Of a DNA stretch of 35,248 bases, positions 21,459 to 28,379 are shown piece after piece. How positions within the stretch are numbered: position 1 is the stretch's first letter; each line of letters starts with the position of its first letter. Made by a program: the position numbers and the translations under genes. Origin of the DNA: Desulfobacterales bacterium (lineage in GTDB: Bacteria > Desulfobacterota > Desulfobacteria > Desulfobacterales > C00003060); the NCBI GenBank assembly GCA_013375395.1, contig JABXJW010000012.1, forward strand, positions 1-35,248. The letters are read 5' to 3'. The notes below the pieces were generated by a model. That model searched no databases, was not told the origin of the DNA, and worked only from the letters and a program-made list of their open reading frames with translations.

Positions 21459-22004
21459 CTACTTGCGCCCCTTGGGACGTTTTGCATCCAAGGCATTATA
21501 TGCTTGTATCACTTTGTCCGTGATGTCAATGGCATTGGGCGCATAGACAACGCCACCCACACGGCGTTCAAGAATCAGCAAGTAGCCTTCTTGTTTTCCT
21601 ATTCTTTCAACGATCTCAAAAACATCTTTCTTGATCCTATTGGAGAGCTTAAGATTCAGATCCTTCAAGACGTCCATGTACCGTTTTCTGAGTGACCTTA
21701 AGTCGTTGGTCTTGATCCGCAGGCTCCGCTCTTTTTCCTCGCGCGCCTCCCGGCTCATGACTAAAACTTTCTGTTCCAGGCTCTTCTTTATCTCCTCAAC
21801 CTTGGCCTCTTTGCCTTTCAGGATCTGCTCCATCTTCTTCCCCTGACTCTTAATCTCAACCGCTGACCGCTTGCCGGCATTGGAGGTGTCGATTATCCTC
21901 TGAAAGTCGATGACTCCTATCTTTGCGACCTCCGCACCAAAAGCAATTCCACTGACGGCAAACAAACAAAGGGTCAAGGTTAAGAATATTGTGCGCATGT
22001 TCAT
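21459..22004 (-). CDS. skp: Skp/OmpH periplasmic chaperone
   Basis: Signal peptide MNMRTIFLTLTLCLFAVSGIAFGA, IGVIDFQRIIDTSNAGK, coiled-coil. Start placed at 22004 because AAAGGAGG lies just upstream; the track's ATG at 22028 is in the heptamer array. Confidence 0.9.
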   Translation of the reverse strand: MNMRTIFLTLTLCLFAVSGIAFGAEVAKIGVIDFQRIIDTSNAGKRSAVEIKSQGKKMEQILKGKEAKVEEIKKSLEQKVLVMSREAREEKERSLRIKTNDLRSLRKRYMDVLKDLNLKLSNRIKKDVFEIVERIGKQEGYLLILERRVGGVVYAPNAIDITDKVIQAYNALDAKRPKGRK

Positions 22005-22020
22005 GAAGGACCTCCTTTTG

Positions 22021-22139
22021 TTGGTCATTGGTCATTGGTCACTGGTCATTTGTTACTGGTCATTGGTCACTGGTCACTGATTATTGGTATTTCCCAATGA
22101 CCAATGACTACTGACTATTGACTAATGACCAATGACTCA
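22021..22139. repeat. In-phase heptamer array (17 x 7 nt), TTGGTCA units then inverted TGACCAA-type units
   Basis: TTGGTCA TTGGTCA TTGGTCA CTGGTCA TTTGTTA CTGGTCA TTGGTCA CTGGTCA CTGATTA TTGGTAT TTCCCAA TGACCAA TGACTAC TGACTAT TGACTAA TGACCAA TGACTCA. Confidence 0.93.
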
Positions 22140-24608
22140 GAACGCCATCCCCATTGTAAACTCCAAGCCACCTTCGCCTTGCCGGTCTTCTTTATCATCC
22201 AGGATATAGCCATACTCCAAACGAATGGGGCCTATGGGAGAATACCATCTAAAGCCAAAGCCTGCGCTGCTTCGCAGCTCCGCCAGGTCCATATGTTCCC
22301 CTTTGCCGTACACGCTGCCCGTATCGTAGAAAAGGACCCCCATAAGGCCTGATTCTCTTGCGATGGGAAAGAGAAACTCCAGATTAAACTGCACCATCTT
22401 GTCCCCGCCTATCTCATTGCCTTCAGGGTCCTCGGCACTGATATCCCGCCAGCCATAACCACGTACGCTGTTCATGCCGCCCAGATAAAAACGCTCCCAA
22501 TCAGGCATCTTGCCATCGGTAACGTCGACTATGCAGCCTGCGCGGCCGTGCAGCACCCCGACGGTATTCCAGAAAAGGGGAGTGTACCATCCGGAATTCG
22601 CAATATACTTGGTAAATCCAATATCTCCGCCCATGGGCGCACCCGCGTGCTTGACCATGATGCTGTTATCCGAGCCTTCTGTGGGGTTGAAAATGCGGTC
22701 TCTTGAGTCTCGGCGCAGCACGGCTGTTATCGTATTGCCGACGTTTTCCCCCTCCATTTCCTTGATAGACTCGGTGGCCTTATCAGTATCAATATCCTTG
22801 ATGTCCGCTTTGTCATAGTTATATGACAAAGACAGCCGGGTGTAGTCGAAAACCGGATATCCGAACCGAATGGTTCCCCCCGAGCTATCCTTGTCATAGG
22901 TATCATAGTCCTTGGTCGTATTGTAAAGATCAAAGCCTGCCGTCAGGGGAATATCAAAAAGCCAGGGTTCGGTGAATCTGAATGTGTAGGTCGTGCTTAT
23001 CTTGCCCAAGTGTGCGTTAAGTCCCAAGATTTGGCCACGTCCGAACAGGTTTCTCTGTGAAATCGAAGCCATAGCAAACAGGCCGTCCACAGAGCTGTAT
23101 CCACCCCCGAAGCTGAATACTCCGGTGGGCTTTTCCGCCACATCGAGTCTTAGAATCAGTCTGTCATCGGCGCTCCCTTTTGAGGTGTTTACCTTGATAT
23201 CTTCAAAAAAATCAAGGCGGTAAAGGTTTCGCACCCCCCTCCTTAGGCTCTTGCCGCAAAAGACTTCCTGCTCGTACACTTTGAGTTCTCTGCGAATGAC
23301 CTTGTCACGGGTCTTGGTATTGCCGGAAATCATGATTTTTTCAAAATAAACGAGCGGCCCCTTGTTGATCACATAGATGATATCAGCTTTGAATTCTTTG
23401 AGATCCTGATCAATGCGCGGCGAAATATCTGCGTAAGCATAACCAGCGTCAGAATATACGTCCCCTAAGATCAAAATATCTTCTCGTATAATCTCGCGAT
23501 TGTAAAACTGTTCCTTATTAATCTTCATTTTATCCAGCAATTCCTCTTTTGGCTGAATTAGATCTCCTTCAATGTCAACCTTGCCGACCTTGAACCGTGG
23601 CCCCTCTTCTATCTTGATGTCGATATGAATCCACCTTCCGTCATAAGTGAAATGTGGCTCGGCAACTCTTGCTTGAATATAGCCGTGATTATGATAGTAG
23701 GCAGCTATCTTGGATATATCCTGGTCCAAGACCTCGCGGTCCAAATCCCCTGACGCAGTAAGCCACGAAAAGAAACCCTTCCCCTCCGTCTTCATCAGGT
23801 CTTTCAACGCGTCATCATCATAAGAATTGTTCCCCTCAAAAGAGATGGCCTTGATAAAGACCCTTTCCCCCTCTTCAATGACAAAATCAATATCAGCTCG
23901 ATTCTCAGATACAGACTTTGTCTCATGGGTCACCTTGACATGATGATACCCCTTTTCTTTGTAAAGGTTCTCAACCTCTCTCAAGTCACCTACAAGCGTA
24001 TTGACGTTCAGGATGGAACCCGGCCTTGTGCGAAGGACCTCTTTGATCTTTTCATCATCAAAGCTCTTGTGGCCCCTGATCCCGATCTTGCGTATTGTCT
24101 CATTTTCTGAAACCCGAAAAGTCACCACCTTCCCCTGTGGCGTGCTTTCGGCATCTGCACGAACGTCGCCGAAATAGCCCATCTTATGAATTGATTTCAG
24201 GTCATTCTGGATATGTTTTTCCGAATAGATATCACCCTTTTGGGTCTTTATGATCCGCTTGATCGCCTCAGCCTCTATCCGTCTGTTCCCTTTGATGACG
24301 ACCTCGGCCACCTTCTCCCGCCTTAATACCTTCATCACGATGCCTTGCCCCGGCCGCCTAATAGAATCCGGCAGGTCTCCTGCGCCCTCCACTGCCACAT
24401 GAAGGGCCTCCGGAGGCTCGGAGGTGTACGATTCCACAATGTTGGCATCCAGGCTGTCCTGAATCCGGCCTGCAACTGCATCCAGTCCTTCAGGGGCGGG
24501 CGCCTCAAAAGGCAGAATAGGCACTCGCACAGTCTCCCGGGCTGCAACACTGCTCGAACACAGCAACAAGATTAGAAAACTCGGCAACCATCGCCTGAAC
24601 ATACTCAC
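22137..24608 (-). CDS. bamA: Outer membrane protein assembly factor (POTRA repeats + beta-barrel)
   Basis: 823 aa, VAEVVIKGNRRIEAEAIKRIIKTQKGD..., repeated POTRAs, NSVRGYGWRDIS, terminal ...GLEFTMGMAF. Confidence 0.96.
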   Translation of the reverse strand: MSMFRRWLPSFLILLLCSSSVAARETVRVPILPFEAPAPEGLDAVAGRIQDSLDANIVESYTSEPPEALHVAVEGAGDLPDSIRRPGQGIVMKVLRREKVAEVVIKGNRRIEAEAIKRIIKTQKGDIYSEKHIQNDLKSIHKMGYFGDVRADAESTPQGKVVTFRVSENETIRKIGIRGHKSFDDEKIKEVLRTRPGSILNVNTLVGDLREVENLYKEKGYHHVKVTHETKSVSENRADIDFVIEEGERVFIKAISFEGNNSYDDDALKDLMKTEGKGFFSWLTASGDLDREVLDQDISKIAAYYHNHGYIQARVAEPHFTYDGRWIHIDIKIEEGPRFKVGKVDIEGDLIQPKEELLDKMKINKEQFYNREIIREDILILGDVYSDAGYAYADISPRIDQDLKEFKADIIYVINKGPLVYFEKIMISGNTKTRDKVIRRELKVYEQEVFCGKSLRRGVRNLYRLDFFEDIKVNTSKGSADDRLILRLDVAEKPTGVFSFGGGYSSVDGLFAMASISQRNLFGRGQILGLNAHLGKISTTYTFRFTEPWLFDIPLTAGFDLYNTTKDYDTYDKDSSGGTIRFGYPVFDYTRLSLSYNYDKADIKDIDTDKATESIKEMEGENVGNTITAVLRRDSRDRIFNPTEGSDNSIMVKHAGAPMGGDIGFTKYIANSGWYTPLFWNTVGVLHGRAGCIVDVTDGKMPDWERFYLGGMNSVRGYGWRDISAEDPEGNEIGGDKMVQFNLEFLFPIARESGLMGVLFYDTGSVYGKGEHMDLAELRSSAGFGFRWYSPIGPIRLEYGYILDDKEDRQGEGGLEFTMGMAF

Positions 24609-26640: not shown

Positions 26641-26771
26641 AAACATCACACTTCGTGCCCATTATTCCAATTGCGGAGCGAAGCGGAACTAAATTTTAAT
26701 TATATCAGAAATAGCACCAATAGCCAACAAAGAGTTACTGATGCCAGATACCTGGCAGTAGCAGGCCTTAA

Positions 26772-26813
26772 GCATCCGGCGCCACCCATCCGGCATCCAG
26801 CATCCTGCATCGG
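26772..26813. repeat. Heptamer array, GCATCCN units (6 x 7)
   Basis: GCATCCG GCGCCAC CCATCCG GCATCCA GCATCCT GCATCGG. Confidence 0.8.
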
Positions 26814-26826
26814 TTGCCAACACCAA

Positions 26827-26861
26827 TGACCACTGACCAATGACTACTGACTACTGACCGG
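26827..26861. repeat. Heptamer array, TGACYAN units (5 x 7)
   Basis: TGACCAC TGACCAA TGACTAC TGACTAC TGACCGG; contains the lysS stop codon. Confidence 0.85.
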
Positions 26862-28328
26862 AGACCTCATCTGCGGAAAAAGGATCACTTCCCGGATGGA
26901 TGGCGCATCGGTCAGCAACATTACAAATCGGTCAATTCCAATACCTTCACCCGCTGTTGGAGGCATGCCGTATTCGAGGGCAGCCACATAGTCTTCATCC
27001 ATGTAGCAGGCCTCTTCATCACCCTCCACTCGATCTTCAACCTGTTCCAGAAATCGCCTTTTCTGGTCAACCGGATCATTCAGTTCCGAAAACCCGTTAG
27101 CGATCTCACTTCCTCCGATAAAGAGCTCAAAACGCTCGGCCACCCCCGCATTCGAACCGCTCCTCCTGGCAAGGGGTGAAATTTCCACCGGATAGCCCAC
27201 GATAAAGGTGGGCTCAATCAGCTTGGGTTCCACAAGTACATCGAATAGTTTGTTAAGGATCTTGCCCAGCCGCCGTGCTTTTGTAATCTGGACCCCCTTG
27301 GACTCGGCAAAATCGAGCAATCGCTTCCGATCATTGAACAAAGAAGGATCAACTCCGCCCAGTTTGCTCAACGCATCTGCCAGGGTTAATCGCGGCCATC
27401 GTCCTTCCATATCAATCTCGTTGCCCTGGTATGTAAAATGCGGGGCTCCAAGGACTTGCTTGGCTACGAATGTTAACATCTCCTCGGTCAGGGTCATGAG
27501 ATCTTCATGAGTTGCATAAGCAAGATAGAATTCCAGCATAGTAAATTCCGGGTTGTGCCGGGTTGAAACCCCTTCGTTCCTGAAATTTCTGTTTATTTCG
27601 AAAACCCGGTCAAGACCGCCTATCACCAATCGCTTCAGATAGAGCTCCGGTGCAATCCGCAAAAACAGCTCCATGCCCAGGGCATTGTGAAAGGTCTTGA
27701 AAGGGGTGGCCTCAGCCCCTCCGGGAATGGGCTGCATCATAGGAGTCTCCACTTCCAGGAACCCTCGCTCCAGCAGGAAATCCCGGAAGGCTTGAATGAT
27801 TCGCGCCCTGTTGACAAAGATCTCCCTGACGTTCGGGTTCATGATGAGGTCAAGGTATCTTTGACGGTACCGCTTCTCAGGGTCCCTTAATCCATGGAAT
27901 TTTTCCGGCAGTGGCCTGAGCGCCTTGCAAAGGAGTCGAATCTCTTTGGCCTGAAGCGTCCATTCGCCTGTCTTGGTTCGAAACACGGCGCCCTTGATTC
28001 CAATAAAGTCGCCTATTTCAAATTGCTTGAACAAGGCATAGGATTGCCGGCCGATCTCGTCTTGTTTTACGTACGCTTGAAGTTGTCCGGTATAGTCCCT
28101 AAAATGAAGAAAGGCCGCTTTTCCAAAAGACCTCAGCCCTATGATGCGACCGGCCATTGCAAAAACGGCCGTCTCGTCCACAGCCCCTGCATGCTCGTGA
28201 ATATGTTGTTTTACCTCATCAACCGCATGTGAAACCTTGAAGTCGTTGGGATAAAGCTCAACACCCTGATCAGCCAGAGCCTTTGCTCTTTCTCGGCGTT
28301 GGCGAATAACTTCACTCGATTTGTTCAT
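26844..28328 (-). CDS. lysS: Lysyl-tRNA synthetase, class II
   Basis: GFLEVETPMMQPIPGGAEATPFKTFHNALGMELFLRIAPELYLKRLVIGGLDRVFEINRNFRNEGVSTRHNPEFTMLEFY; GIGIDRFVMLLTD. Confidence 0.98.
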   Translation of the reverse strand: MNKSSEVIRQRRERAKALADQGVELYPNDFKVSHAVDEVKQHIHEHAGAVDETAVFAMAGRIIGLRSFGKAAFLHFRDYTGQLQAYVKQDEIGRQSYALFKQFEIGDFIGIKGAVFRTKTGEWTLQAKEIRLLCKALRPLPEKFHGLRDPEKRYRQRYLDLIMNPNVREIFVNRARIIQAFRDFLLERGFLEVETPMMQPIPGGAEATPFKTFHNALGMELFLRIAPELYLKRLVIGGLDRVFEINRNFRNEGVSTRHNPEFTMLEFYLAYATHEDLMTLTEEMLTFVAKQVLGAPHFTYQGNEIDMEGRWPRLTLADALSKLGGVDPSLFNDRKRLLDFAESKGVQITKARRLGKILNKLFDVLVEPKLIEPTFIVGYPVEISPLARRSGSNAGVAERFELFIGGSEIANGFSELNDPVDQKRRFLEQVEDRVEGDEEACYMDEDYVAALEYGMPPTAGEGIGIDRFVMLLTDAPSIREVILFPQMRSPVSSQ

Positions 28329-28344
28329 AGTGCCGCATTCGTTG

Positions 28345-28379
28345 TTGGTTATTGGTTATTCGGAAATCGCTATTCGGGA
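28345..28379. repeat. Degenerate heptamer array upstream of lysS
   Basis: TTGGTTA TTGGTTA TTCGGAA ATCGCTA TTCGGGA. Confidence 0.6.

Follow-up and report, generated by a model that had tools for sequence, protein, structure and literature searches.

Short repeats fill the whole gap between bamA and skp in this uncultured Desulfobacterota sediment bacterium, which raises the question of whether they serve these two genes in particular or represent one copy of something more widespread. Within the window (the entire 35,248-nt stretch of DNA analysed here), reading positions 22021-22139 in 7-nt steps from 22021 yields 17 heptamers in a single phase. On the + strand, about ten TTGGTCA-type units (TTGGTCA, TTGGTCA, TTGGTCA, CTGGTCA, TTTGTTA, CTGGTCA, TTGGTCA, CTGGTCA, CTGATTA, TTGGTAT) are followed, after the centre, by seven of TGACCAA type (TTCCCAA, TGACCAA, TGACTAC, TGACTAT, TGACTAA, TGACCAA, TGACTCA), and the weakest units (4-5 of 7 matches) cluster mostly around that centre. 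A sequence-only reading had described 17 in-phase heptamers with an inverted second half, unbroken phase across the centre, and an extent from the skp leader exactly to the bamA stop; the 7-nt reading and TRF bear out the array, the phase persists across the centre in degenerate units, and the final unit contains the bamA stop (TCA on the + strand, TGA in sense). Both genes lie on the - strand, and the order in the mRNA is bamA stop, W arm (TTGGTCA), W' arm (TGACCAA) and skp ribosome-binding site (RBS). The array begins 4 nt from the skp Shine-Dalgarno sequence and 16 nt from the likely skp ATG; the longest skp frame in the ORF list would start inside the array, at 22028. Pfam identifies LpxD as the next gene after skp. 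Two further heptamer arrays, of GCATCCG and TGACCA types, occupy 26771-26866 between lysS and the next gene, the latter crossing the lysS stop, and a short GGTTATT array just 5' of the lysS start (28336-28360) is related to the TTGGTCA unit in degenerate form.

Table 1. Coordinates of the bamA-skp array, its parts and neighbouring features in the window
Feature	Coordinates	Strand	Basis
W' arm, TGACCAA-type in mRNA sense (TTGGTCA on +), ~9.7 units, directly 5' of skp Shine-Dalgarno	22021..22088	-	TRF (period 7, score 80; 14-mer score 91), sequence
Dyad centre, phase carried through degenerate units; array segments stop at 22088 and resume at 22094	22089..22093	.	sequence
W arm, TTGGTCA-type in mRNA sense (TGACCAA on +), ~6 units, adjoining bamA stop	22094..22136	-	TRF, inverted repeat I1
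bamA stop codon TGA = degenerate 17th unit in register (TGAGTCA in sense)	22137..22139	-	ORF list, stop-codon statistics
bamA, upstream gene: POTRA repeats + Omp85	22140..24608	-	Pfam
skp Shine-Dalgarno AGGAGG	22011..22016	-	sequence; AGGAGG or GGAGG in most relatives' gaps reaching skp
skp/OmpH-like downstream gene, likely ATG 22004-22002	21459..22004	-	Pfam OmpH, ORF list
The window's other TTGGTCA-type array (W in sense), crossing 3' end and stop codon of lysS	26822..26866	-	TRF

The unit recurs far beyond this gap. Searched with at most one mismatch, the seed ATTGGTCATTGGTCA had 96 matches in the 4.25-Mb draft genome versus one for its reversed control, and the arrays found were mainly intergenic. 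These counts derive from a pattern search together with about 0.49 Mb of own-genome regions chosen for containing the seed, in assemblies that are fragmented MAGs where repeats may be collapsed. Of 22 genomes sampled from the genus, the own genome included, 21 carried the seed; in other families of the order, most genomes had none or one to two matches, and seed-rich genomes were scattered elsewhere in the phylum. The closest named BamA record, at 72% identity, is from Deltaproteobacteria bacterium B60_G16, a Guaymas MAG. With gene borders drawn throughout by a simple longest-ORF caller, only 4 TTGGTCA arrays in the genus genomes fell inside ORFs of at least 120 aa. Intergenic self-matches were in excess at lags 7, 14 and 21, with little elsewhere besides lag 1, both in the own genome (lag-7 z = 22) and in a sister genome, G007 (z = 18). 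We therefore consider it probable that the bamA-skp array belongs, as a single copy, to a dispersed, lineage-specific family of paired heptamer arrays between cistrons: a fast-changing repeat family and not a switch specific to bamA-skp, since it recurs dozens of times in the genome and in sister species, nearly always intergenic and inward. A role particular to bamA-skp is not supported, given that dozens of unrelated gaps hold such arrays, that occupancy turns over and that the hairpin shows no sign of RNA-level selection.

The layout of paired arrays follows a rule. In four genomes of the genus, 31 of 32 pairs of TTGGTCA arrays that neighbour each other within less than 450 nt faced inward ('+-' 31, '-+' 0, '++' 1, '--' 0). 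A test that ignored the identity of the unit found 43 of 44 heptamer pairs inverted, across several families; the G-rich arm came first in 39 of these 43, and two of the four exceptions had nearly no skew. Arrays are enriched in co-directional gaps (56/62 vs 339/443, p = 0.013), where lone arrays read TGACCAA in sense more often than TTGGTCA (34 vs 11, p = 8e-4). The inward layout is present in convergent and divergent gaps too, so a ribosome-binding site does not explain it. Polarity inherent in the TTGGTCA sequence is ruled out by the TTGGTCA arrays of IMG/VR contigs, whose orders are mixed (6 '-+', 4 '+-' and 4 '--', several from one metagenome). These putative viral contigs hold exact TGACCAA triplets in 31 stretches (L265-L295), and several stretches from metagenome 3300017987 have the outward order.

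The arrays also extend into the ends of genes. The W arm adjoins the upstream stop codon, often supplying TAG from the unit TTAGTCA, and the W' arm precedes the next gene. Stops beside W arrays were TAG in 19 cases, TGA in 6 and TAA in 1, versus 31, 35 and 34% elsewhere (Fisher p = 2e-5 for TAG). Several genes also end in codons that are themselves array sequence, for example ...SerGlyHis-stop in L121 and ...IleGlyHis-stop in L209. The bamA stop is TAG or TGA in all nine dyad-bearing species and TAA in most outgroup families. Since stop codons have been captured in this way, the arrays edit coding ends.

Occupancy of individual gaps changes between species. Among 18 genomes of the genus, the bamA-skp gap, which is 16 to 413 nt long and varies in unit number, carries a dyad in 9 (G000, G018, G007, G016, G017, G010, G006, G008 and G021), a partial or degenerate dyad in 4 and none in 5, as classed by eye. 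The sequence-only reading would have held a functional role to be unlikely had periodicity been absent in close relatives and placement inconsistent; periodicity is present in these relatives, if not in all, and placement is consistent genome-wide. Phylogenetic clustering of the dyad was dropped as an idea, because the BamA tree needs 8 changes versus a mean of 6.8 for shuffled labels. Relatives mostly lack the arrays seen at pdxJ-acpS and metK-ahcY. Where the own genome has TTGGTCA arrays in the pdxJ-acpS gap, G001 and G003 have a GAGTTGC/GGGTTAC heptamer dyad in common (L220 and L221), and the bamA-skp gap of G021 (L058) holds a palindromic, MITE-like insert (GAGACCTTTGCATAACCCC...GCAAAGGTCTC) between its heptamer arms. 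In other families the bamA-skp gap carries unrelated heptamers, AGTGAGA/TCTCACT (L072) and GGTTTCA/CTGAAAC (L062), likewise inward; thus what is conserved is the layout, not the sequence.

One alternative is that a selected RNA hairpin couples or balances translation of bamA and skp by joining the stop codon of one with the Shine-Dalgarno sequence of the other. The potential for a long imperfect hairpin, anticipated from the sequence, is real: arms 22024-22066 and 22094-22136 are 84% complementary, and as RNA the array folds better than shuffles on both strands (z of -7.1 and -7.8). The base of the hairpin is flush with the bamA stop and the skp RBS, dyads lie mostly in co-directional gaps (22/23), and other families show the identical layout with different heptamers. 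Any inverted pair of arrays would fold likewise, however, and a register shifted by one unit still gives 81% complementarity. Paired arms showed no unit-by-unit matching (Stouffer z 0.70, n=27), and changes tolerated by G-U wobble were not enriched on the proper arm but ran the opposite way (0/67 vs 17/102). Because the arms do not mirror each other unit for unit and show no wobble tolerance in their substitutions, neither selection for an RNA hairpin nor a pairing constraint is supported. By eye, the dyads of G010 and G006 differ by one change per arm, and these do not compensate; moreover, where a species has no dyad the gap is of ordinary, short length (16 nt in G002, 25 nt in G012). We hold a selected hairpin to be very unlikely. 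Recent fold-back copying or in-register pairing was also rejected, as the register-matched arms expected of it are absent, and no known RNA family was identified, as the window had no Rfam 15 match at the gathering threshold. Under the repeat-family reading, the paired arms would still bring the bamA stop near the skp RBS in the mRNA, and the hairpin may have short-range effects on translation; it would be a tolerated, nearly neutral by-product of the inward layout.

A second alternative concerns recognition. In the own genome, changes to the unit concentrate at positions 1 and 3 (43 and 39 of 60 arrays, versus 7-13 at the others), giving the consensus GTCA-N-T-N, and the pattern in G007 is similar. 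This position-specific variation is the clearest hint that the motif is recognised. It is possible that the arrays are multivalent sites for a trans-acting DNA- or RNA-binding protein that reads GTCA-N-T-N at a 7-nt pitch, with inward pairs serving as loop anchors or paired operators. One unit at many loci, with positions 2 and 4-7 constrained and 1 and 3 free across loci and species, would agree with such a protein, and the opposite-strand heptamer pairs of Geobacter metallireducens have been called predicted binding sites of a global regulator (PMC2700814). In the IMG/VR arrays the variable positions are 3, 5 and 6 instead, which argues that the pattern of variation is lineage-specific. On the other hand, the flanking genes are housekeeping genes of unrelated function, species differ by gain and loss of sites, array lengths at one locus are very unequal, and the shared variants could also have spread by copying of mixed-unit arrays between loci. 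A binding protein of this kind thus seems unlikely to us. A broader proposal seems rather unlikely: that some factor present throughout the lineage reads GTCA-N-T-N at a 7-nt pitch and drives inward-facing array pairs to the borders of cistrons genome-wide, resetting protein ends by supplying stops, with other families doing likewise with other heptamers. Within the repeat-family reading, two observations nonetheless suggest recognition or selection and not pure neutrality: the concentration of variation at positions 1 and 3, and the bias of lone arrays towards one orientation on the sense strand.

How such a family might arise and spread can be sketched. A full copy consists of W(n)-spacer-W'(n), where W is TTGGTCA (GTCA-N-T-N in the genus) and W' its inverse. 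Arrays would lengthen and shorten by 7-nt steps, presumably through the replication slippage proposed by Mrazek et al. 2007, as quoted by Rehm et al. 2015 (PMC4692102) and cited in PMC4679880, and would have reached many gaps by dispersal between loci. Selection would exclude arrays from genes, and for this reason they would span the interval from stop codon to RBS, sometimes capturing the stop. A dispersal process is required, since plain local slippage cannot yield one unit at dozens of loci; no such process was found for these arrays. The many copies, the inverted ends and the presence or absence of arrays in orthologous gaps might be taken to indicate a MITE- or REP-like mobile element with array-type inverted ends, moved for example by a REP-associated Y1 transposase. 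Yet the spacer between paired arms ranges from 3 to 409 nt, and no conserved core or target duplication was noticed in the inspected copies. The five Y1_Tnp matches of the own genome have no arrays nearby and G007, with 56 seed matches, has no Y1_Tnp match, which excludes the RAYT/Y1 transposase link. A mobile element of this type is therefore quite improbable. The arrays resemble REP/BIME palindromes in being dispersed, extragenic palindromic units between cistrons, but are 7-nt tandem arrays and not palindromes of 20-40 nt.

The kind of repeat itself is already known, as heptamer reports from Xanthomonas and Nostoc, from Geobacter and on TAACTGA demonstrate. TTGGTCA itself is reportedly one of the three STRR heptanucleotides of Calothrix PCC 7601. 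Rehm et al. 2015 (PMC4692102) cite Mazel et al. 1990 for three tandem heptanucleotides in that strain, and describe G-rich GGGAATC and GGGGA(T/C)T heptamers in Xanthomonas and Nostoc that form convergent pairs under the same placement rule. The arrays described here share with the LSSR/STRR kind their in-phase tandem 7-nt units, the dispersal of one unit in many intergenic copies and a copy number that differs among relatives, in support of the kinship with cyanobacterial heptamer repeats noted earlier; with the Xanthomonas/Nostoc type they share convergent pairs whose G-rich strand reads away from the ORF. The Xanthomonas/Nostoc units form G-quadruplexes, whereas TTGGTCA has only GG and no GGG tract; hence the inward layout is independent of quadruplexes. 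In Geobacter metallireducens, the class 3 heptamers (MTYCTGA; Gmet_I) are likewise tandem, paired on opposite strands at variable distance and found in a delta-proteobacterial lineage, but they have another unit and are labelled predicted regulator sites (PMC2700814). The TAACTGA direct repeats of Beggiatoaceae, Cyanobacteria and Bacteroidetes (MacGregor 2015, PMC4679880) also consist of a single heptamer at very many intergenic sites, many closely 5' of starts, with a patchy phylogeny. A literature search by the TTGGTCA sequence returned unrelated papers only. Our arrays are probably best read as kin to the paired heptamers of Xanthomonas, Nostoc and Geobacter: lineage-specific repeats between cistrons, thought likely here to expand, disperse and be tolerated at gene borders.

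Intergenic heptamer repeats have been reported piecemeal over decades, with quadruplexes, regulators or slippage proposed as causes. New here are a G-tract-free unit that obeys the inward rule, the takeover of stop codons by arrays, and the exchange of unit sequence at one locus while the layout is conserved; the latter two are not described for the Xanthomonas/Nostoc repeats in the excerpts of PMC4692102. By comparing Desulfobacterota it can now be tested why the unit has seven bases, why arrays are paired and why they lie at gene borders. Many arrays have a unit other than TTGGTCA: the own genome has GCATCAG/GATGCCG types, G031 has AGGCTGA, G086 AACCCTG and G069 TTAGCTG. The reversed control, (ACTGGTT)n, is itself abundant (25-51 matches) in G141, G176, G233 and G288, where it represents another heptamer family. 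In G031, from another family of the same order, AGGCTGA/CCTTCAG dyads occur at several loci with the G-rich arm first, for example at 12426-12518 of L133 and 6726-6812 of L137.
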